Positions 5,135 through 36,071 are shown, counted from the stretch's first letter. The stretch is DNA of 64,000 nt from Halorussus salilacus (GCF_024138125.1 NZ_CP099993.1:868001-932000), one strand, 5' to 3'. Notes: generated by a model not told the origin, from the letters alone. Numbers and translations are program-made.

Positions 5135-6376
5135 CTACGCCTCGTCGAACAGTTCCTCGCCCGCCACCATCTTGTCTTCGACCACGTCCATATCGAGCGT
5201 CACGCCCAGCCCCGGCTCCTCGGGAATCTCGATGTAGCCGTCCTCGATGACGTCCTCCTCGACGAGGTCTTCCCACCAGCCGAGCTGGTAGCTGTGGTAC
5301 TCGACCGCCAGCGAGTTCGGGATGGCGGTGCCGACGTGGGCGGAGGCCATCGTCGCCACGGGCGAGGAGACGTTGTGCATGGCGACCGGAACGTAGTACT
5401 GGTTCGCCACGTCGGCTATCTTCCGGGTCTCGCGCATCCCGCCGACCTTGGGCATGTCGGGCGCGACGATGTCGACCGCCTGGTTCTCGATGAGCCGACG
5501 GAGTTCGGTGACTCGATAGCGGTTCTCGCCGACCGTGATGGGGGTGAGCGTGGACTTCGTGACCTCCTCCTGCACGTCGAGGTTCTCCGGCGGGACGGGG
5601 TCTTCGAGCCACCAGACGTCGTAGTCCTCCAGCGCGCTGGCGAGTCGCTTCGCGCTCCCGCCCGAGAAGGTCCAGTGGCAGTCGAAGGCGACGTCGGCGC
5701 GGTCCTTGACGCGCTCGGTGACGGCCTCGACGATGTCGGTCTTGTGACGGACCTCGCCCGGCCGGAGGTGGCGGTTCGCGCGGTCCTTCTCGTGACCGGA
5801 GGGCACGTCGAGGTCGAACTTGAGCGCGTCGTAGCCCAGTTCCTCGACCACGCGCTCGGCCTCGTCTGCGCAGGCCTCGGGGTCGGCCTCGTCGGCGGTG
5901 TGACAGTCGCAGTACACCCGGACCTCGTCGCGGTACTTCCCGCCGAGGAGTTGGTAGGCGGGCACGTCCAGCACCTTGCCCGCGAGGTCGTGGAGCGCGA
6001 TTTCGATGCCCGAGATGGCGGTGACGGTGACGCCCTCGACGGAGCCTTCGCCCGACATCTTCTGGACGAGGTGCTCGTAGAGCCTGTCGATGTCGAGGGG
6101 GTTCTCGCCCACGAGGAAGGGTTTCATCCGCTGGACGAGTTCGGGGACGCCCGCGCCCCAGTAGGCCTCGCCGGTGCCGACGACTCCGGCGTCGGTGTAC
6201 ACCCGGACGAGCGTCCACGGGAAGTTGCCGTCGACCATCGTGGTCTGGACGTCGGTGATTTCGAGGTCCCGCGGTCCCGGACCGCGCTCGCGGTCGAGCC
6301 CCATCGACTCCGAGGAGAGGTCTCGCATCGTGTACTCGGCGTTCGGGTCGTGGAGCTCGGCGTAGTTCCGTACCAT
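5135..6376 (-). CDS. gad: Enolase-superfamily sugar-acid dehydratase, likely D-gluconate dehydratase
   Basis: The 413-residue protein has the mandelate racemase/muconate lactonizing fold. An N-terminal capping domain leads to a barrel with metal ligands Asp232 (FDCHW), Glu258 (WLEDPVPP) and Glu284 (GENRYR). Lys186 (LKFDLD) and His334 (AMHNVSSP) sit at the usual acid/base positions. Haloarchaeal homologues turn D-gluconate, or in some paralogues pentonates such as xylonate, into 2-keto-3-deoxy acids. An aldolase lies next door and glucose dehydrogenase and gfcR lie 5 kb away, which favours gluconate. A palindrome shared with the gdh promoter lies 9 bases before the start. Substrate by inference. 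Confidence 0.82.
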   Translation of the reverse strand: MVRNYAELHDPNAEYTMRDLSSESMGLDRERGPGPRDLEITDVQTTMVDGNFPWTLVRVYTDAGVVGTGEAYWGAGVPELVQRMKPFLVGENPLDIDRLYEHLVQKMSGEGSVEGVTVTAISGIEIALHDLAGKVLDVPAYQLLGGKYRDEVRVYCDCHTADEADPEACADEAERVVEELGYDALKFDLDVPSGHEKDRANRHLRPGEVRHKTDIVEAVTERVKDRADVAFDCHWTFSGGSAKRLASALEDYDVWWLEDPVPPENLDVQEEVTKSTLTPITVGENRYRVTELRRLIENQAVDIVAPDMPKVGGMRETRKIADVANQYYVPVAMHNVSSPVATMASAHVGTAIPNSLAVEYHSYQLGWWEDLVEEDVIEDGYIEIPEEPGLGVTLDMDVVEDKMVAGEELFDEA

Positions 6377-6378
6377 GT

Positions 6379-6588
6379 TCAGGAATTACTCCGGCGGGAG
6401 TAAAAGTTTAGAGGGTGTCGGAGCGCCGGAACGCACCCGTCGGTCGCCGCGAGGAGGTACACACCCACCGAAGCCATCAGGAGAGCGAACGCGGCGCTTT
6501 CGGACGATAGCGCGCTCAGTACGCCGATGGTCAGAAACTGACTCCCCAGAATCGTGCGCTTGGTGACGCGGTATGTGAGTGGGGTCAT
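6379..6588 (-). CDS. Small membrane protein, unknown function
   Basis: This possible 69-residue protein begins MTPLTYRVTKRTILGSQFLT and has two hydrophobic stretches (GVLSALSS...FALLMASVGVYLLAA). It ends two bases before the gad start codon, and its 3' end overlaps the gad palindrome and TATA region. Codon use is GC-rich in third position, like real genes here, but the overlap with a promoter is a warning. An upstream in-frame ATG at 6642 is also possible. I do not recognise the family. Confidence 0.4.
   Translation of the reverse strand: MTPLTYRVTKRTILGSQFLTIGVLSALSSESAAFALLMASVGVYLLAATDGCVPALRHPLNFYSRRSNS
6386..6403. promoter_or_regulatory. Palindrome TTACTC-N6-GAGTAA at the gad promoter (candidate GfcR site)
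   Basis: TTACTC (6386-6391), a 6-base spacer and GAGTAA (6398-6403) form a perfect palindrome 9 bases upstream of the gad ATG. The AT-rich CTTTTAC on the gad strand overlaps its far end and could be the TATA box of a leaderless transcript. The same half-sites with the same 6-base spacer occur before glucose dehydrogenase and in the kdgA/MoaD-like gap. That supports a common regulator, most simply GfcR, which is encoded at 12437. Confidence 0.65.
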
Positions 6589-6721
6589 GGCTCTTTGTGT
6601 GGCCGACCAGCGCGGGGTCGACACCGTCGTCCACCCCTTCATTGCTAGTTAATGTCTCCCATGGCAATAAATGTTCCGACAGTTTCGAATCGTTTGAACC
6701 GGTTATGCGTCGGGAATTACC

Positions 6722-7639
6722 TCACAGCAGGTCGAGTTCCGACAGGTCGGCCCGAAGAGCCGCCCGGTCGTCGTCGTCCATCTTCCGGAGCGGGCTCCGG
6801 AGCGGTCCGGGGTCGAATCCGACCTCCCGGAGGTCGAGAGCGGTCTTGACCCCGGCCATGTAGGGCCCGCGCTTGAGGGCGTCCCGGACCTCGTAGACGT
6901 CGCTCTGGAGTCGCCGGGCGCGCTCCTCGTCGCCGTCGTCGTAGGCCTCGTAGAGGTCGACGACCAGTTCGGGGAAGGCGTTGGCGACCGCGCTGACCAT
7001 CCCCGCACAGCCGAGGTCGAGGCCGGGGACCAGCAGGGAGTCCGACCCCGCGAGGAAGGTCAGTTCGGGGTGGGCGTCGATGGCCTGCCCGAGCCACGGC
7101 ACGTCCTTGCTCGAATCCTTGAGACCGACGAGGTTGTCGATGTCGGCGAGCGAATCCAGCGTGTCGAGCGACAGCGAGTTGCCGGTCTTGCTCGGGATGT
7201 GGTAGACGTACACCGGGAGGTCGACCGCCGCCGCGACCCGGCGGTAGTGGTCGAGCGCGCCCTCGTGGTCCAGCGGGTAGTAGTACGGCGTCACGACGAC
7301 CACGCCGTCGGCACCGACCATCTCGGCGCGCTCGGCGTGGGCGACGGTCTGGCGGGTGCTGGGCGCGCCGACGCCCGCGATGACCGGCGCGTCGTCGCCG
7401 ACCGTCTCGACGACCGCCTCGACCACGTCGTCGCGCTCCTCGGGCGCGAGCAACGGGAACTCGCCGTTGGTGCCCAGCGGGAAGACCCCGTGTGCCCCGC
7501 GGTCCACGACGAACCGCGCGTGGGCCGCGGTCGCCTCGTAGTCGACCGATTCGTCCTCGTCGAACGCCGTTATGGTCGGCGGGACGACCCCGTGGATGTC
7601 GAGGGGGTCGCCCGAGCCGGGTGCTGGTGCGTTTCCCAT
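6722..7639 (-). CDS. kdgA: 2-keto-3-deoxy-(6-phospho)gluconate aldolase (DapA family)
   Basis: The 305-residue protein is a class I aldolase of the DHDPS/NAL family. It has the Schiff-base lysine at 174 (VGLKDSSKDV), the conserved tyrosine at 146 (VYVYHIPSKTGN), and PLGTNGEFPLL in place of the DHDPS GSTGES loop. In haloarchaea such enzymes cleave KDPG or KDG to pyruvate and glyceraldehyde(-3-phosphate). It lies downstream of gad's 5' end in the same direction but with a gap of about 130 bases holding a small ORF. A true dapA sits at 57346, so this paralogue is the sugar-acid one. GGAGG lies about 20 bases before the ATG. Confidence 0.85.
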   Translation of the reverse strand: MGNAPAPGSGDPLDIHGVVPPTITAFDEDESVDYEATAAHARFVVDRGAHGVFPLGTNGEFPLLAPEERDDVVEAVVETVGDDAPVIAGVGAPSTRQTVAHAERAEMVGADGVVVVTPYYYPLDHEGALDHYRRVAAAVDLPVYVYHIPSKTGNSLSLDTLDSLADIDNLVGLKDSSKDVPWLGQAIDAHPELTFLAGSDSLLVPGLDLGCAGMVSAVANAFPELVVDLYEAYDDGDEERARRLQSDVYEVRDALKRGPYMAGVKTALDLREVGFDPGPLRSPLRKMDDDDRAALRADLSELDLL

Positions 7640-7688
7640 ACCCGTCGGGTCGGTGGCCGCCTCCTAAGTGGTTGCGTCTTCCGAGTAC

Positions 7689-7706
7689 TTTTTCGATATT
7701 GAGTAA
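7689..7706. promoter_or_regulatory. Candidate GfcR site between kdgA and the MoaD-like gene
   Basis: On the plus strand TTTTTC-GATATT-GAGTAA matches the gdh-promoter site, with the same 6-base spacer and one perfect half-site. It lies 49 bases before the kdgA start and 32 bases before the MoaD-like start. The 27 bases from 7689 match the gdh promoter segment from 11321 at 22 positions, including CTTTTGT just downstream. It could serve both divergent genes. Confidence 0.6.
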
Positions 7707-7738
7707 ACCTTTTGTTGCAGGACGCTAGAGAGGGCAGT

Positions 7739-8011
7739 ATGAACGTGACAGTCAAGCTGACGGGAACGCTGGTCGCCCGCACCGGCACCCGCGAGGCCCG
7801 CGTGGCGGTCGAGGAGGACGCGACGCTCGGCGACGTGGTCGAGGAACTCGCCGACTCGTACGGCCCGCAGGTCCGCGCGGGCGTGCTCGACGGCGAGCGC
7901 CTGCGCTCGGACACCGTCGTCGTTCGCGAGTCGGTCGACTCGACCGAGACGCTCTCGACCGCGAGCCCGCTGGAGAACGGCGACACGGTGCGATTCCGGC
8001 TGAACGTCTGA
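7739..8011 (+). CDS. MoaD/ThiS-like ubiquitin-fold protein lacking terminal Gly-Gly
   Basis: I chose the ATG at 7739 (MNVTVKLTGTLVARTG), which fits a TATA element 25-30 bases before it. The 90 residues form a beta-grasp protein similar to MoaD and the small archaeal modifiers (SAMPs), with SPLENGDTVRFRLNV at the end. Family members that carry sulfur or conjugate to proteins end in Gly-Gly; this one ends in Asn-Val. It therefore cannot be activated at the C terminus in the usual way. The gene is divergent from kdgA and its promoter closely resembles that of gdh, so it may belong to the sugar-acid regulon. Role unknown. Confidence 0.75.
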   Translation: MNVTVKLTGTLVARTGTREARVAVEEDATLGDVVEELADSYGPQVRAGVLDGERLRSDTVVVRESVDSTETLSTASPLENGDTVRFRLNV

Positions 8012-8415
8012 GACCGCGTTTCCGGACCTCTTTCTCGGTGTTTCTCGTTTCTGCCCGCGTTCGGACTCGCGCTTCTCCCGCGTTCGGACTCGCGCTCGCG
8101 GCGCTCGCGCTCGGGCTCCCCAGGCCTCGGACGACGGCCGTTCCGTTCGTTTCCGGCGCGCGCTGGCGTCATCGCGCCGACGGCGCGATTGCTCGGAAGA
8201 CGCGGTTTGTCTTCCGGCGCGGCCTCGCGGAGGCCGCGCCGACCGCGCGAGGGAGTCGGCCGGGCTTCGCGGTCGGTGCGGTCGACGAAGCGCGGTCGAC
8301 GAGGCTGGGGAGGCGTGAGGCCCGCGGTGGGTCGCCGTGCGGAACTCCTCGGCCCGGCCGGTAGCTACGGACCGGACCGATTACTCGCCGAGATGGGAGA
8401 CCGGGAGCGAGACGC
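8012..8415. other. Gene-free gap with tandem repeat and two hairpins
   Basis: This lies between two converging genes. It holds a 20-base direct repeat with 23-base period (8054-8096), a hairpin at 8171-8189 (ATCGCGCCG/CGGCGCGAT) and another at 8215-8241 (CGGCGCGGCCTC/GAGGCCGCGCCG, 3-base loop). The hairpins may act in termination from either side. The possible reading frames have no protein-like features. Confidence 0.6.
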
Positions 8416-9693
8416 TCAATCGAGCGTCGCCAGCCGATTCAGCGCGTAGATGGTCCGCAACACGTCCCCGGCCTTTCCGCGGTCGAAGACGAGTTCGTCG
8501 GTCCGGATGACGTGGTCCAGCACGTCCCGGGAGGCGTGTTCGGGCGCGGCCGCGATTCCGGCGTCCTCGTCTGCGACCCACTCCATCACCCGGAGGTCGC
8601 TCTTGCTGTCGCCCAGCACCGCCGCGAACGGGTCGTCGATGCCCAGCACCTCGAAGGCGGCCTCGACGCCGACGACCTTGTTGAGTTCGAGGCTCCCGAT
8701 TTCGGCGGCGTCGGCCTCGTAGTAGGCGACGTCGATGCGCTCGAACGCCTCCCGAATCCCCTCGGGCACGTCGTCGGGCGCGAGGTCGACGGTCTCGCCC
8801 TCGCGTTCGAGGACGCCGCGGATTTCGGGGTCCTGATCGGCGTAGTAGGCGCTGGCCCAGTCGCCGGGGTCGGCGCTCGCGTCCTCGGCGTCGGCTCCCT
8901 CCGCGTCTCCCGCCCCGACGCGCTCGGCCACCGCGTCGCCGAGCAGGCCGAGTTCGTAGACCAGCGCGCGGTCGATGACCTCGCGGGCCCGGTCGCTCCC
9001 GGTCTCGAAGTTGGGCTTGAGCGTGACGTTGAACTCGTTTCCCTGAAGGTGACACCCCCGCCGGAGTTCGTCGGGCGCGTCCGAGAGAATCCGCGAGCGG
9101 ACCGCGTCGAAGACCGCCCGGATGTCCTCGCCGAGGTCCTCGTAGAGCAGTCGCTTGGTGTCTGCGCCGTGGCCGGGCGTGAACACGCCGGTCCCGGCCT
9201 CGTAGACCACGCTCACGTCGCCCGAGTGGACGAGTTCGTTGCCGAGCCCCTGGATGAGAAAGCCCTTGACGTTCTCCAGCGTCTGGCCGGTGCAGACCAC
9301 GATGGGCGTCCCCTCCTCGTGGAACTCGGTCAGCAGGTGGAGCGTCTCGCGGGGAATCTCGTTGTCGGTCCCGCCCGCCGAGCGCAGGGTCTCGTCCACG
9401 TCGAGGACGAGGACGTTCACCCCCCGGCCGTACTTGGCGTGGAGGTCGAGCGCGGCGAACGCCTGGTCCCGGGTCGCGCGCGCGGCGAGCTCGCAGAACG
9501 TCTCGCCGGTCTCGGAGAACGCCGACCGGACCTCGTCCTTGCGCGCGGCGAGTTCGTCGCTGGCGTCCTGCCAGTGTTCGAGCGCGACCCGCGAGTCCAC
9601 CGGCGGGAACACGTCCACGAAGTCCTGGTAGGCGCGGAGGGTCGCGGCGTCGAACTCCTCGTAGAGGCGATAGAGTTGGTCGTAGCGCTCCAT
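8416..9693 (-). CDS. HAD-superfamily hydrolase
   Basis: The 425-residue protein has a helical N-terminal region (about 1-90) and then a HAD phosphatase core. Motif I is VLVLDVDETLRSAGG, motif II is VVCTGQTLENV, and the C-terminal acidic motif is FAAVLGDSKSDLRVMEW. The two Asp of motif I and the GDSKSD element would bind Mg and the phosphate. The cap region between them (about 190-330) suggests a C2-type (Cof/sucrose-phosphatase-like) enzyme with a sugar phosphate or similar substrate. The acidic insert around DAEGADAEDASADPGD is low-complexity. Substrate unknown. Confidence 0.8.
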   Translation of the reverse strand: MERYDQLYRLYEEFDAATLRAYQDFVDVFPPVDSRVALEHWQDASDELAARKDEVRSAFSETGETFCELAARATRDQAFAALDLHAKYGRGVNVLVLDVDETLRSAGGTDNEIPRETLHLLTEFHEEGTPIVVCTGQTLENVKGFLIQGLGNELVHSGDVSVVYEAGTGVFTPGHGADTKRLLYEDLGEDIRAVFDAVRSRILSDAPDELRRGCHLQGNEFNVTLKPNFETGSDRAREVIDRALVYELGLLGDAVAERVGAGDAEGADAEDASADPGDWASAYYADQDPEIRGVLEREGETVDLAPDDVPEGIREAFERIDVAYYEADAAEIGSLELNKVVGVEAAFEVLGIDDPFAAVLGDSKSDLRVMEWVADEDAGIAAAPEHASRDVLDHVIRTDELVFDRGKAGDVLRTIYALNRLATLD

Positions 9694-10027
9694 GCCGGGA
9701 GTGGGTCGCTTTCGGGGATAAAGGTCGGGGTGGTTCTAGGTGATTCTGGTCCGGTTCGAGGTGGCGGAGCTGGCGGTTCTAGTTCGTTGATTTTCGTTGC
9801 GTGACAATTCGGGCAGAAGCTAGCTACTCCCGGTACCTATGAGACCGCACCGCCACCGCAGGCCACATTCCTCCCCAACCGACTGCGTTTCTCGGGCGCT
9901 CACTTCGTTCGCGCCCTGCGATACTCATCCCTCGCGCGCTTGGCGCGGCCCAAACCACGGGCCGCGCCAGCACGCGCCGGGTGGATTAGTCTACCGAACG
10001 AGAGCAGGAGGAACGACTATATCCGAG
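9694..10027. other. Gene-free gap with a GC hairpin
   Basis: No convincing gene is seen here. Two short repeats of GGTTCTAG occur near 9730-9785. A hairpin with 10-base arms (GGCGCGGCCC/GGGCCGCGCC, 9942-9968) lies about 60 bases past the stop of the zinc-ribbon gene on the reverse strand and may be its terminator. Confidence 0.5.
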
Positions 10028-10168
10028 TCACCGAACGCGGTCGAACACGGTGCAGTCGCAGTTCCCGCACGTCCGGCGGTTGAACCGATACGTCTTCCCG
10101 CAGTCGTGACATTGCCACGTCGGCCGAATCACGTCCAGTTTCGACTTGAGCGACTCGTAGAGTTTCAT
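10028..10168 (-). CDS. Small zinc-ribbon protein
   Basis: The 46-residue protein MKLYESLKSKLDVIRPTW... has two CxxC knuckles, CHDCGK and CGNCDC, about 15 residues apart, so it should bind one zinc ion. Start at 10168; a longer frame upstream (to 10240) has no protein-like composition. Such small zinc proteins are frequent in haloarchaea and their roles are mostly unknown. It is divergent from the AIR-synthase-like gene. Confidence 0.72.
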   Translation of the reverse strand: MKLYESLKSKLDVIRPTWQCHDCGKTYRFNRRTCGNCDCTVFDRVR

Positions 10169-10248
10169 ACCGGCCCTACGGACCGGACCCAAAAGACCGT
10201 GACGCCCGCTCCGCGGAAACTTAGGTGCTGGACCGTCCACGGGCTACC

Positions 10249-11211
10249 ATGGTCGGCAAACTCGACTCCGACGATCTGGCGAACTTCGTCCTCTCGCGGA
10301 CCGGCGCGCCCGACGAGGACGTGCTGATGGGACCGAAGTACGGGGAGGACGCCGCGGCGATCCGGTTCGGCGACCGCATCCTGATCGCCAGTTCCGACCC
10401 CCTCTCGCTGGCGCGTGAGCGACTCGGCACCCTCGCGGTCCACGTCGCGTGCAACGACGTCGCGGCCTGCGGCGGCGACCCCCGGTGGCTGACGAACGTC
10501 GTCTTCCTGCCGAACGACGACCCCGAGACGCTCGACGTGCTGACGGGCCAGATAGACGCCGAGGCCGACTCGCTGGGGGTCGCCATCGTCGGCGGCCACT
10601 CCGAGTACGCCCCCGCACTGGAGCGCCCGATGGTGTCGATGACCGCGCTCGGGGTCGCCGACGAGTACGTCCCCACCGCCGGTGCCGACCCCGGCGACCG
10701 CGTCCTGCTGACCAAGGGCGCGGGCGTCGAGGGGACCGCGATTCTGGCGACCGACTTCCGCGAGGACCTCGACCTCCCGGCCGCCGCGCTCGAACGCGCC
10801 GAGGGCTTCTTCGGCGATATCAGCGTCGTCCCCGAGTCGGCCGTCCTCCGCGAGCGCGCCACCGCGATGCACGACCCCACGGAGGGCGGCGTCCTCAACG
10901 GCCTCGTGGAGCTGGCGGTCGCCTCCGGGGTCCGAATCGACGTGGAGCGGTCGTCGGTCCCCGTCCGCGAGGAGACCGCCGCGGCCTGCGAGGCGATGGG
11001 CGTCGACCCGCTGCGCATCTTCGGGTCCGGGGCGCTCCTCGCCGCGGTCCCGGGGGGAGAAATCGACGACGCGCTCGGCGACCTCCGCGACGCGGGAATC
11101 GAAGCGAGCGAGATAGGCGTCGTGACCGAGACCGACGACCCTGGAGTCGACCTCGACGGCGAGGTCGTTCGAGAGGGCGTCCGGGACGACCTCTACGCGC
11201 TGTGGGAGTGA
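10249..11211 (+). CDS. AIR synthase/HypE-like ATP-binding protein
   Basis: The 320-residue protein from the ATG at 10249 has the PurM-like two-domain layout. Its N-terminal ATP/Mg loop is GPKYGEDAAAIRFGD, followed by HVACNDVAACGGDPRWL and GGHSEYAPALERP, and the C-terminal half carries AMHDPTEGGVLNGL and GSGALLAAVP. These match the HypE/ThiL/SelD group. HypE modifies carbamoyl groups for NiFe hydrogenases, but no hydrogenase genes are present here. Haloarchaeal homologues are annotated only as AIR-synthase related. The true reaction is unknown. Confidence 0.75.
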   Translation: MVGKLDSDDLANFVLSRTGAPDEDVLMGPKYGEDAAAIRFGDRILIASSDPLSLARERLGTLAVHVACNDVAACGGDPRWLTNVVFLPNDDPETLDVLTGQIDAEADSLGVAIVGGHSEYAPALERPMVSMTALGVADEYVPTAGADPGDRVLLTKGAGVEGTAILATDFREDLDLPAAALERAEGFFGDISVVPESAVLRERATAMHDPTEGGVLNGLVELAVASGVRIDVERSSVPVREETAAACEAMGVDPLRIFGSGALLAAVPGGEIDDALGDLRDAGIEASEIGVVTETDDPGVDLDGEVVREGVRDDLYALWE

Positions 11212-11261
11212 GTCGGTCGACCGGTGAAGCAGGCTCTGACGACTGCTCGTACCGAGGGTGG

Positions 11262-11300
11262 AGACCGCGAGACCGCCGCGACGCGGCGGTCTCGCGGTCT
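11262..11300. terminator. Perfect 19-base-arm hairpin, likely terminator
   Basis: Arms at 11262-11280 and 11282-11300 (AGACCGCGAGACCGCCGCG and its exact complement) are separated by one base. It lies about 50 bases after the stop of the AIR-synthase-like gene and just before the gdh promoter. It could insulate the two units. Confidence 0.55.
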
Positions 11301-11320
11301 TCCATTCGACGAACCGGCGT

Positions 11321-11338
11321 TTACTCGATATAGAATAA
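11321..11338. promoter_or_regulatory. Candidate GfcR site at the glucose dehydrogenase promoter
   Basis: TTACTC (11321-11326), GATATA and GAATAA (11333-11338) form a near-perfect palindrome that differs from the gad site by one base in the second half. It ends 31 bases before the gdh ATG and directly precedes AAATCTTTT, a plausible TATA region for a leaderless transcript. Confidence 0.65.
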
Positions 11339-11369
11339 ATCTTTTGTGTCCCGGGCCGAAAGGTCGACC

Positions 11370-12440
11370 ATGGAAGCAGTCGTCATCCGTCGCGGCGCGT
11401 CCTCGCCCGCGGTCGAAGAGCTACCCCGCCCGGACCCGGACGCGGGGGAGGTACTGGTCCGGACCCTCCGGGTCGGCGTCGACGGCACCGACCACGAGGT
11501 CATCGAGGGGTCCCACGGCGGGTACCCCGAGGGCGACGACTACCTCGTCCTCGGTCACGAGGCCGTCGGCGTCGTCGCCGACGCGAACGGGACCGCCTTC
11601 GAGGCGGGCGACGTGGTCGCACCGACCGTGCGCCGACCGCCCGCCGACGGCCCGAACGAGTACTTCGAGCGCGGCGAACCCGACATGGCCCCGCCGGAGG
11701 CCTGCGTCGAGCGCGGCATCGACGGCGCGCACGGCTTCATGGCCGAGTACTTCACGAGTCCCGCCGAGTACCTCGTCCATGTGCCCGAGGAACTCGCCGA
11801 GTGGGGCTTTCTGGTCGAACCCGCCAGCATCACCGAGAAGGCCCTCGAACACGCCGCGGCCTCGCGGTCGGCGTTCGACTGGACGCCCGAGTCGGCCCTC
11901 GTCCTCGGCAACGGGAGCCTCGGCCTGCTCACGCTCGCGATGCTCGTCGCGCGAGGGTACGACCGCACCTACTGTCTGGGTCGGCGCGACCGACCGGACC
12001 CGACCATCGACGTTATCGAGAAGTTAGGCGCGACCTATATCGATTCGCGCGTGACGCCCGTGCCCGAGGTCCCCGCGGCCCACGAACCGATGGACCTCGT
12101 CTACGAGGCGACCGGATACGCCAGACACGCCTTCGAGTCCATCGAGGCGCTCGCGCCCGGCGGGGTCGCCGCCCTCCTCGGCGTGCCCGACCCGTGGCGG
12201 TTCGAGGTCGACGGCGGCCGCCTCCACGAGGAGCTGGTGATGACGAACAAGGCGCTCGTCGGGAGCGTCAACTCCAACACCTCGCACTTCGCGGCCGCGG
12301 TCGAGACGCTGGCCGACCTCCCGGCGTGGTTCCTCGACGACCTCGTGACGGGCGTCCACGGACTCGACGACTGCGAGGCGGCGTTTGCTGACGGCGACGA
12401 AACGACAATAAAGACCGCAGTCCAATTTGCCCAGATATGA
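11370..12440 (+). CDS. gdh: Glucose 1-dehydrogenase
   Basis: The 356-residue zinc-dependent medium-chain dehydrogenase starts at the ATG at 11370, not the in-frame GTG at 11346. The catalytic domain contains GVDGTDHEVIEG and LVLGHEAVGVV, with the Asp, His and Glu expected as zinc ligands in haloarchaeal glucose dehydrogenase. The Rossmann domain begins LVLGNGSLGLLTLA near residue 175. It oxidises D-glucose to gluconolactone with NAD(P), the first step of the semi-phosphorylative Entner-Doudoroff route. The stop overlaps the gfcR start by four bases, so enzyme and regulator are co-transcribed. Confidence 0.92.
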   Translation: MEAVVIRRGASSPAVEELPRPDPDAGEVLVRTLRVGVDGTDHEVIEGSHGGYPEGDDYLVLGHEAVGVVADANGTAFEAGDVVAPTVRRPPADGPNEYFERGEPDMAPPEACVERGIDGAHGFMAEYFTSPAEYLVHVPEELAEWGFLVEPASITEKALEHAAASRSAFDWTPESALVLGNGSLGLLTLAMLVARGYDRTYCLGRRDRPDPTIDVIEKLGATYIDSRVTPVPEVPAAHEPMDLVYEATGYARHAFESIEALAPGGVAALLGVPDPWRFEVDGGRLHEELVMTNKALVGSVNSNTSHFAAAVETLADLPAWFLDDLVTGVHGLDDCEAAFADGDETTIKTAVQFAQI

Positions 12441-13087
12441 AGAACGTAGACGACCTCATCGAAAGCGCAGCCGAGTTGGCGAACCAGGGCCTCTCGAAGG
12501 GCGAGATAGCCGACGAACTCAACGTCTCCCGGGAGACCGCGAGCTGGCTGGTCGAGCGAAGCGGGAGCGGCACCGACGCCGCCGCGACCCCCGACCCCGA
12601 GCCGTCGGGCGACGGCGGCCCTCACGACATCCACGTCGACTGGTCGGCGCTGGGCCGCGACAGCGCCCGCCTCTACCACGCCGGGGCCGCGATGGCCGAC
12701 CTCCTCGAAAAGCAGGGCGAGGAGGTCGACCTGACCATCGGCATCGAGAAGGCGGGCGTGCCCCTCGCGACCTCGGTCGCGCGCGAACTCGACACCGACC
12801 TCGGTGCCTACGCGCCAGCCAAACACCAGTGGGAGGAGGGTGACATCGAGGAACTCGGCGGCACCTTCTCGCGCAACTTCGCTCAGATTCGAGGTCGGGA
12901 GTGCTACGTGGTCGACGACACCATCACCAGCGGGACCACCATGACCGAGACCGTCAAGGCCATCCGCAACGAGGGCGGCAAGCCGGTCGCCTGCTGTGTC
13001 CTCGTGGACAAGCAGGGCGTCGAGGCGGTCGAGGGCGTGCCGGTCCACTCGCTCATCAACGTCGTGCGGGTGGGCGACGAGGAGTAG
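12437..13087 (+). CDS. gfcR: GfcR, PyrE-like transcriptional regulator of sugar degradation
   Basis: The 216-residue protein has an N-terminal helix-turn-helix (GLSKGEIADELNVSRETASW, residues about 19-38) and a C-terminal phosphoribosyltransferase domain with the PRPP loop YVVDDTITSGTT. Despite the orotate phosphoribosyltransferase look, this architecture matches GfcR, described in Haloferax volcanii as a regulator of glucose and fructose degradation genes and located next to gdh there too. It overlaps gdh by four bases. Palindromic sites at the gdh, gad and kdgA promoters are its likely targets (inference). Confidence 0.9.
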   Translation: MKNVDDLIESAAELANQGLSKGEIADELNVSRETASWLVERSGSGTDAAATPDPEPSGDGGPHDIHVDWSALGRDSARLYHAGAAMADLLEKQGEEVDLTIGIEKAGVPLATSVARELDTDLGAYAPAKHQWEEGDIEELGGTFSRNFAQIRGRECYVVDDTITSGTTMTETVKAIRNEGGKPVACCVLVDKQGVEAVEGVPVHSLINVVRVGDEE

Positions 13088-35903: not shown

Positions 35904-36071
35904 GGGTCGTTGATTTCTCGCCGATTAGTAACACACCGATTACCGCTCTCTCGTTCTGAGGCCACGAGAGCACTCGAAACGTCGTTAATCACCACTTTCG
36001 ACCGTTCGAAGGACCGCGCTATCCGCTTCAGGAGGCTGATAACAAACACCCTCCGCGTCCATCCCGGAGGT

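Follow-up and report, generated by a model that had tools for sequence, protein, structure and literature searches.

Three palindromic sites at sugar-acid gene promoters

The 64,000 nt stretch of Halorussus salilacus DNA analysed here (the window; NZ_CP099993.1:868001-932000) contains genes for a gluconate/galactonate dehydratase-like enzyme (gad), a sugar-acid aldolase (kdgA), a glucose dehydrogenase (gdh) and the sugar regulator GfcR, and copies of the palindrome TTACTC-N6-GAGTAA lie at the gad and gdh promoters and in the gap between kdgA and a divergent gene for a SAMP1/MoaD-like small modifier (Table 1). These sites are probably operators of TrmB, the glucose-sensing repressor/activator of haloarchaea, and not primarily of GfcR. 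A preliminary description of the window had reported the three copies with one common 6-base spacer, perfect at gad, with one change in the second half at gdh and with one perfect half in the kdgA gap, and all were found as claimed.

Table 1. Genes, predicted operators and TATA-like elements in the window
Feature	Coordinates	Strand	Remarks
gad, gluconate/galactonate dehydratase-like enolase-superfamily enzyme	5135..6376	-	MR_MLE; NF040790 best match, below cut-off
gad operator (predicted)	6386..6403	-	TTACTCCGGCGGGAGTAA; perfect TTACTC-N6-GAGTAA, 0 mismatches
gad TATA-like element TAAACTTTTA	6401..6410	-	conserved CCTCCAAAYTTTTACT block; placed by ATG distance
kdgA-like, DHDPS-family sugar-acid aldolase	6722..7639	-	PF00701; match to 2-keto-3-deoxygluconate (KDG) aldolase model below cut-off
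kdgA TATA-like element (predicted)	7662..7668	-	CTTAGGA here, CTTAAGGA in relatives
kdgA/SAMP divergent-gap site	7689..7706	-	TTTTTCGATATTGAGTAA; 2 mismatches, one half perfect; reads TTACTCAATATCGAAAAA toward kdgA
SAMP1/MoaD-like small modifier gene	7739..8011	+	NF041918, E 4e-8, below cut-off; divergent from kdgA
gdh-gfcR operator (predicted)	11321..11338	+	TTACTCGATATAGAATAA; GTTTACTC-N6-GAATAA, 1 mismatch; right half overlaps expected BRE
gdh TATA-like element AAATCTTTTG (predicted)	11337..11346	+	conserved AATAAATCTTTT
gdh, glucose dehydrogenase	11370..12440	+	PF16912 Glu_dehyd_C, E 3e-93
gfcR, PRT-domain sugar regulator	12437..13087	+	NF045507, 395 bits, cut-off 300; start overlaps gdh stop (ATGA)

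At the 69% GC composition of the window, the number of copies expected per 64 kb is 0.0003 for the perfect palindrome, 0.015 for one mismatch and 0.36 for two; the observed numbers are one, one and two, so that chance is a very poor explanation of the gad and gdh sites. The promoters were compared among 18 Halorussus genomes and, outside the genus, at 80 named haloarchaeal gad loci and 57 gdh loci. The kdgA-gap site is unconvincing by its sequence alone, and is accepted because it is conserved in all 18 genomes. The excess of three-mismatch copies is modest (12 versus 6.3), too weak for a test of significance, and composition, conservation and cross-trained models were used instead.

The TATA-like elements and the transcription factor B recognition elements (BRE) were placed by their distance to the ATG and are predictions. 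The left half of the gad site overlaps the TATA-like TAAACTTTTA and its right half lies between this element and the ATG, 9 nt from the latter, a layout that would suit a repressor. At gdh the right half of the site is immediately next to AAATCTTTT, some 31 nt before the ATG, and extends into the expected BRE, which would be the position that the motif has in TrmB-repressed Haloarcula genes. Two divergent genes flank the kdgA-gap site: it lies roughly 20 bp ahead of the TATA-like element of kdgA, and the TATA-like element of the SAMP1/MoaD-like gene is directly next to it. Position relative to TATA thus differs among the promoters, as had been suggested, and is overlapping or downstream at gad; the gdh site, described earlier as upstream, is not simply so. 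The earlier placement of gfcR directly after gdh is borne out by its family match and by the ATGA overlap, which is kept in all 18 Halorussus genomes, and gfcR adjoins gdh in 42 of the 57 loci outside the genus. We note that the SAMP1/MoaD-like gene shares its site with kdgA and has a gdh-like promoter layout across the genus; it is possible that sugar state is tied to small-modifier expression.

Conservation and wider occurrence of the palindrome

The palindrome is the best-conserved block of all three promoters within the genus (half-sites 95-100%, spacers 66-81%, upstream flanks 57-73%), and the same blocks were recovered by alignments blind to it. The gdh promoter carries GTTTACTCrnnnnAGAATAAATCTTT 31-32 nt before the ATG in 18/18 genomes, and the gad promoter carries CC-TCCAAAYTTTTACTC-N6-GAGTAA 8-9 nt before the ATG in 18/18, the copy being degenerate in one fragmentary genome (G015); a seeming absence in another (G008) is a contig-end artefact. 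The kdgA gap reads GACTAAAAGTTTACTCAnnnnCGAAAAAGT in the genus, with GTTTACTCAnnnnCGAAAAAGT conserved in every genome and half-sites at 99-100% versus 77% for the spacer. Outside the genus, with up to three mismatches allowed, a gad site is found 7-20 nt before the start at 69 of the 80 loci, those of Haloarcula salina and Halomicrobium having none, and a gdh site 30-35 nt before the ATG at 49 of the 57. The view that these are conserved regulatory elements common to gad, kdgA and gdh is upheld by this comparison, and they belong to a wider carbon-metabolism regulon.

It is very improbable that the sites are chance palindromes, or TATA and BRE boxes that look palindromic owing to the likeness of AT-rich boxes to TTTAC and GTAAA. 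Each site does have one half on or next to an AT-rich box, and the modest three-mismatch excess would fit such an origin, but conservation largely refutes it: the half farther from TATA and the constant 6-base spacing are kept as strictly as the box. Moreover, the kdgA site and that of gapII (below) are separate from the TATA-like element, and a perfect copy was found where 0.0003 were expected.

A search of the 3.6-Mb genome, a check proposed with the preliminary description, found 44 copies with at most two mismatches versus 20 for a reversed control, and TACTC-N6-GAGTA occurs 115 times versus 13 for its reversed control when summed over the 18 genomes. (Model scoring, below, covered the window; the rest of the genome was read in stretches around pattern matches.) One-mismatch sites precede gapII, a ROK glucokinase-like gene and a gene for a microprotein of 27-35 amino acids, and two-mismatch sites precede trmB and the phosphoenolpyruvate carboxylase gene. 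Some further matches lie inside genes or at 3' ends, and two one-mismatch matches (L006, L007) overlap start codons; these look like chance.

TrmB and GfcR as candidate regulators

The TrmB motif of Halobacterium salinarum is TACT-N7-8-GAGTA; there the protein acts as an activator when its site is upstream of the promoter and as a repressor when the site is downstream (PMC4158304, PMC3794607). The gad site fits this motif exactly (TACT-N7-GAGTA), the gdh site with one change (GAATA) and the kdgA site with two changes in one half. Glucose-sensitive binding of TrmB at gdh has been published for Haloarcula hispanica, where chromatin immunoprecipitation sequencing (ChIP-seq) gave a strong peak with the motif, of rank 4, at the gdh promoter and others at fbp, porA, gapII and ppsA, with binding restricted or largely restricted to glucose-free conditions, and where the motif of TrmB-repressed genes overlaps the BRE (PMC10817205). 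A TrmB orthologue is encoded in the H. salilacus genome (NF047392, 615.8 bits, cut-off 500; PF11495, E 1.6e-67). The hallmark TrmB-activated gluconeogenic gene, gapII, has TTACTCGG-N4-GAGTTA directly upstream of CGAAACCATTATG throughout the genus, and the trmB promoter has the same motif in a gdh-like layout.

When a model trained on gapII and trmB sites from other genomes (39 sites) was applied to the window, the three sites ranked highest, with scores of 30.1 (gdh), 24.3 (gad) and 19.5 (kdgA), the last only narrowly above the maximum of 19.4 reached by 60 randomised windows. This model is biased toward the palindrome because its training sites were picked by best palindrome match; the reverse model is free of that bias, having been trained on gad promoters from other genera (72, each taken at a fixed distance from the ATG), and it ranks gdh and kdgA first and in almost every genome also picks out the gapII site. 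Among 33 gapII promoters outside the genus the site is present in 19 of 26 TrmB-positive and 0 of 7 TrmB-negative genomes (Fisher p 0.0008), and among those with GfcR in 19/26 versus 0/4 (p 0.012), p-values that are optimistic because the lineages are not independent; presence of TrmB, GfcR and GapII was read from one concatenated query, so that assignment of matches rests on query coordinates. All 28 gdh-positive genomes checked have a TrmB orthologue (one at 45% identity), and 7 of 8 genomes that lack gdh lack it.

The preliminary description had taken the sites for GfcR sites. If GfcR alone bound the palindrome, then in the presence of sugar intermediates it would activate gad, gdh and kdgA. 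Several observations agree with this: the strong GfcR family match, the overlap and adjacency of gfcR and gdh, the finding that most gdh promoters lacking the site are not next to gfcR, and the presence of the motif at gad and pyk, both reported GfcR targets. Adjacency is weak evidence, however, because trmB adjoins gdh in several other haloarchaeal lineages (G065:C9, G051:C1, G058:C1, G094:C2, G101:C1; gdh, gfcR and trmB are consecutive in G101), and assignment by neighbourhood was dropped for this reason. The motif equals the published TrmB motif and is not confined to reported GfcR targets, being present also at the microprotein gene and at gapII and trmB, neither of the latter two a known GfcR target. 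Its presence at gapII follows TrmB and not GfcR, the site being absent from the four genomes with GfcR and no TrmB, and the gad TATA-to-start interval would be an odd position for an activator. The GfcR assignment was therefore not sustained, and GfcR acting alone appears quite unlikely. GAPDH-I promoters were considered as a GfcR control; GAPDH-I (TIGR01534) is absent from all 18 Halorussus genomes, although gad, gdh and pyk are present, so the reported main GfcR target, gapI, is lacking and some other enzyme must serve in lower glycolysis.

GfcR may nevertheless read the same palindrome, because the pyk site is gapII-like and the gad promoter has no other conserved block, and GfcR binding at gad or pyk is possible. 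TrmB (without sugar) and GfcR (with sugar) could then compete for the same or overlapping palindromes at gad, pyk and perhaps gdh and kdgA, an arrangement we consider unlikely. The gad and pyk sites are indistinguishable by sequence from gapII sites, one genome has two sugar regulators with opposite signals, and the arms differ, the gdh/gad/kdgA subtype having longer GTTTACTC...GAGTAAAC and gapII CTTACTCGG...GAGTTA; yet TrmB and GfcR have unrelated DNA-binding folds, and the arm difference may merely reflect overlap with TATA and BRE.

Several observations weigh against TrmB as the reader of these sites, including the palindrome-based choice of training sites and the non-independence of lineages noted above. 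Haloferax GfcR reportedly binds and activates gad, GAPDH and pyruvate kinase genes directly. Promoter alignment revealed no second conserved block in the gad promoter besides the palindrome, and the pyk site, CAACTCG-N4-CGAGTGA in gapII-like geometry, misfits simple activation by TrmB. The gapII site is missing in 7 TrmB-positive genomes, and no consistent ppsA-promoter site was found in the genus, weak ones being present in two genomes only; ppsA is not a defining TrmB target in every species. Finally, the Haloarcula hispanica data show no TrmB ChIP peak at gad, kdgA or pyk, and gdh of that species is TrmB-bound yet not differentially expressed (PMC10817205). The missing gad peak is tempered by the lack of a site in the only Haloarcula gad promoter examined, that of Haloarcula salina.

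Some other sites of this type deserve mention. The microprotein gene is conserved and is preceded by a near-perfect TrmB-type site (G000:C1:469826-469843; L002 near 1501-1518, L419-L424, L432); one 35-amino-acid example reads MNWEHPRNMTDVERKK.ETKAGT.SSFIAAMMLAA, and in relatives the ATG is 15 nt past the site. In Haloarcula, HAH_0188 and HAH_2805, which are strongly activated by TrmB, both encode proteins of <50 amino acids. In four relatives (L434-L437) a conserved gene for a membrane protein of about 105 amino acids (MMWQD.VFL.GSVFSLVVLVPTLRDSMANVPLG...) lies behind a perfect TTTACTC-N6-GAGTAAAC palindrome. Within the window, the next best sites after gdh, gad and kdgA are two weaker ones 38 bp apart (35914-35931 and 35970-35987), between NAD-dependent epimerase-like and membrane protein genes.

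A predicted TrmB-GfcR hierarchy

If TrmB is the reader, it would occupy the gad, gdh and kdgA sites when glucose is absent. At gad it would cover the TATA and start region and block transcription, and at gdh-gfcR it would cover the edge of the BRE and TATA and lower or tune an operon from which GfcR is also made. Its place in the kdgA gap, upstream of the kdgA TATA-like element, would match the geometry of the TrmB-activated gapII, and there it would also touch the border of the divergent SAMP-like promoter. Once glucose is present, TrmB would dissociate, gad and gdh-gfcR would rise, and GfcR would then activate its own targets. Since gdh and gfcR overlap in all 18 genomes, the gdh site probably also controls gfcR, and TrmB would thereby control gfcR through the gdh-gfcR operon in a TrmB-to-GfcR cascade.

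Parts of this arrangement have counterparts in known systems. Halobacterium salinarum TrmB (VNG1451C) is similar in its motif, which fits gad and gdh, in the presence of an orthologue with sites at gapII and trmB, and in the variable position of its sites relative to the promoter; that organism does not break down sugar, and its TrmB mainly governs gluconeogenesis and biosynthesis, whereas the Halorussus sites are at gad, kdgA and gdh-gfcR. In Haloarcula hispanica the gdh promoter is bound at the motif and the gapII site is directly upstream of the BRE and TATA (PMC10817205); Halorussus differs in its gad and kdgA sites and in having gdh and gfcR as one operon. The Haloferax volcanii GfcR regulon resembles the present case in the gfcR orthologue beside gdh and the conserved sites at gad and pyk, and differs in that its main target, GAPDH-I, is missing here and that the Halorussus motif follows TrmB at gapII. 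Thermococcales TrmBL1/Tgr belongs to the same sugar-sensing family, in which an upstream site activates and a downstream one represses, but its motif, TATCAC-N5-GTGATA, differs in sequence and spacing. New features are the likely gad operator downstream of TATA, the kdgA site, and the overlapping gdh-gfcR pair behind one TrmB site.

It is a rather doubtful idea that, in the majority of haloarchaea that use sugars, a single palindrome passes from one to the other of two unrelated sugar regulators, TrmB holding gad and gdh-gfcR without glucose and GfcR taking over the same sites with glucose. If true, the two would form a coherent feed-forward switch on a shared operator, GfcR itself being made from a TrmB-controlled operon. 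Under the reading we prefer, TrmB operators, a conserved operator of sugar-pathway genes would belong to TrmB instead of GfcR, and the TrmB regulon, besides gluconeogenesis, would take in the first Entner-Doudoroff steps in saccharolytic haloarchaea. This reading predicts a hierarchy in which TrmB, via the gdh-gfcR operon, sets the level of the second sugar regulator, GfcR, and makes concrete the question of whether the two act in series or compete on one site.

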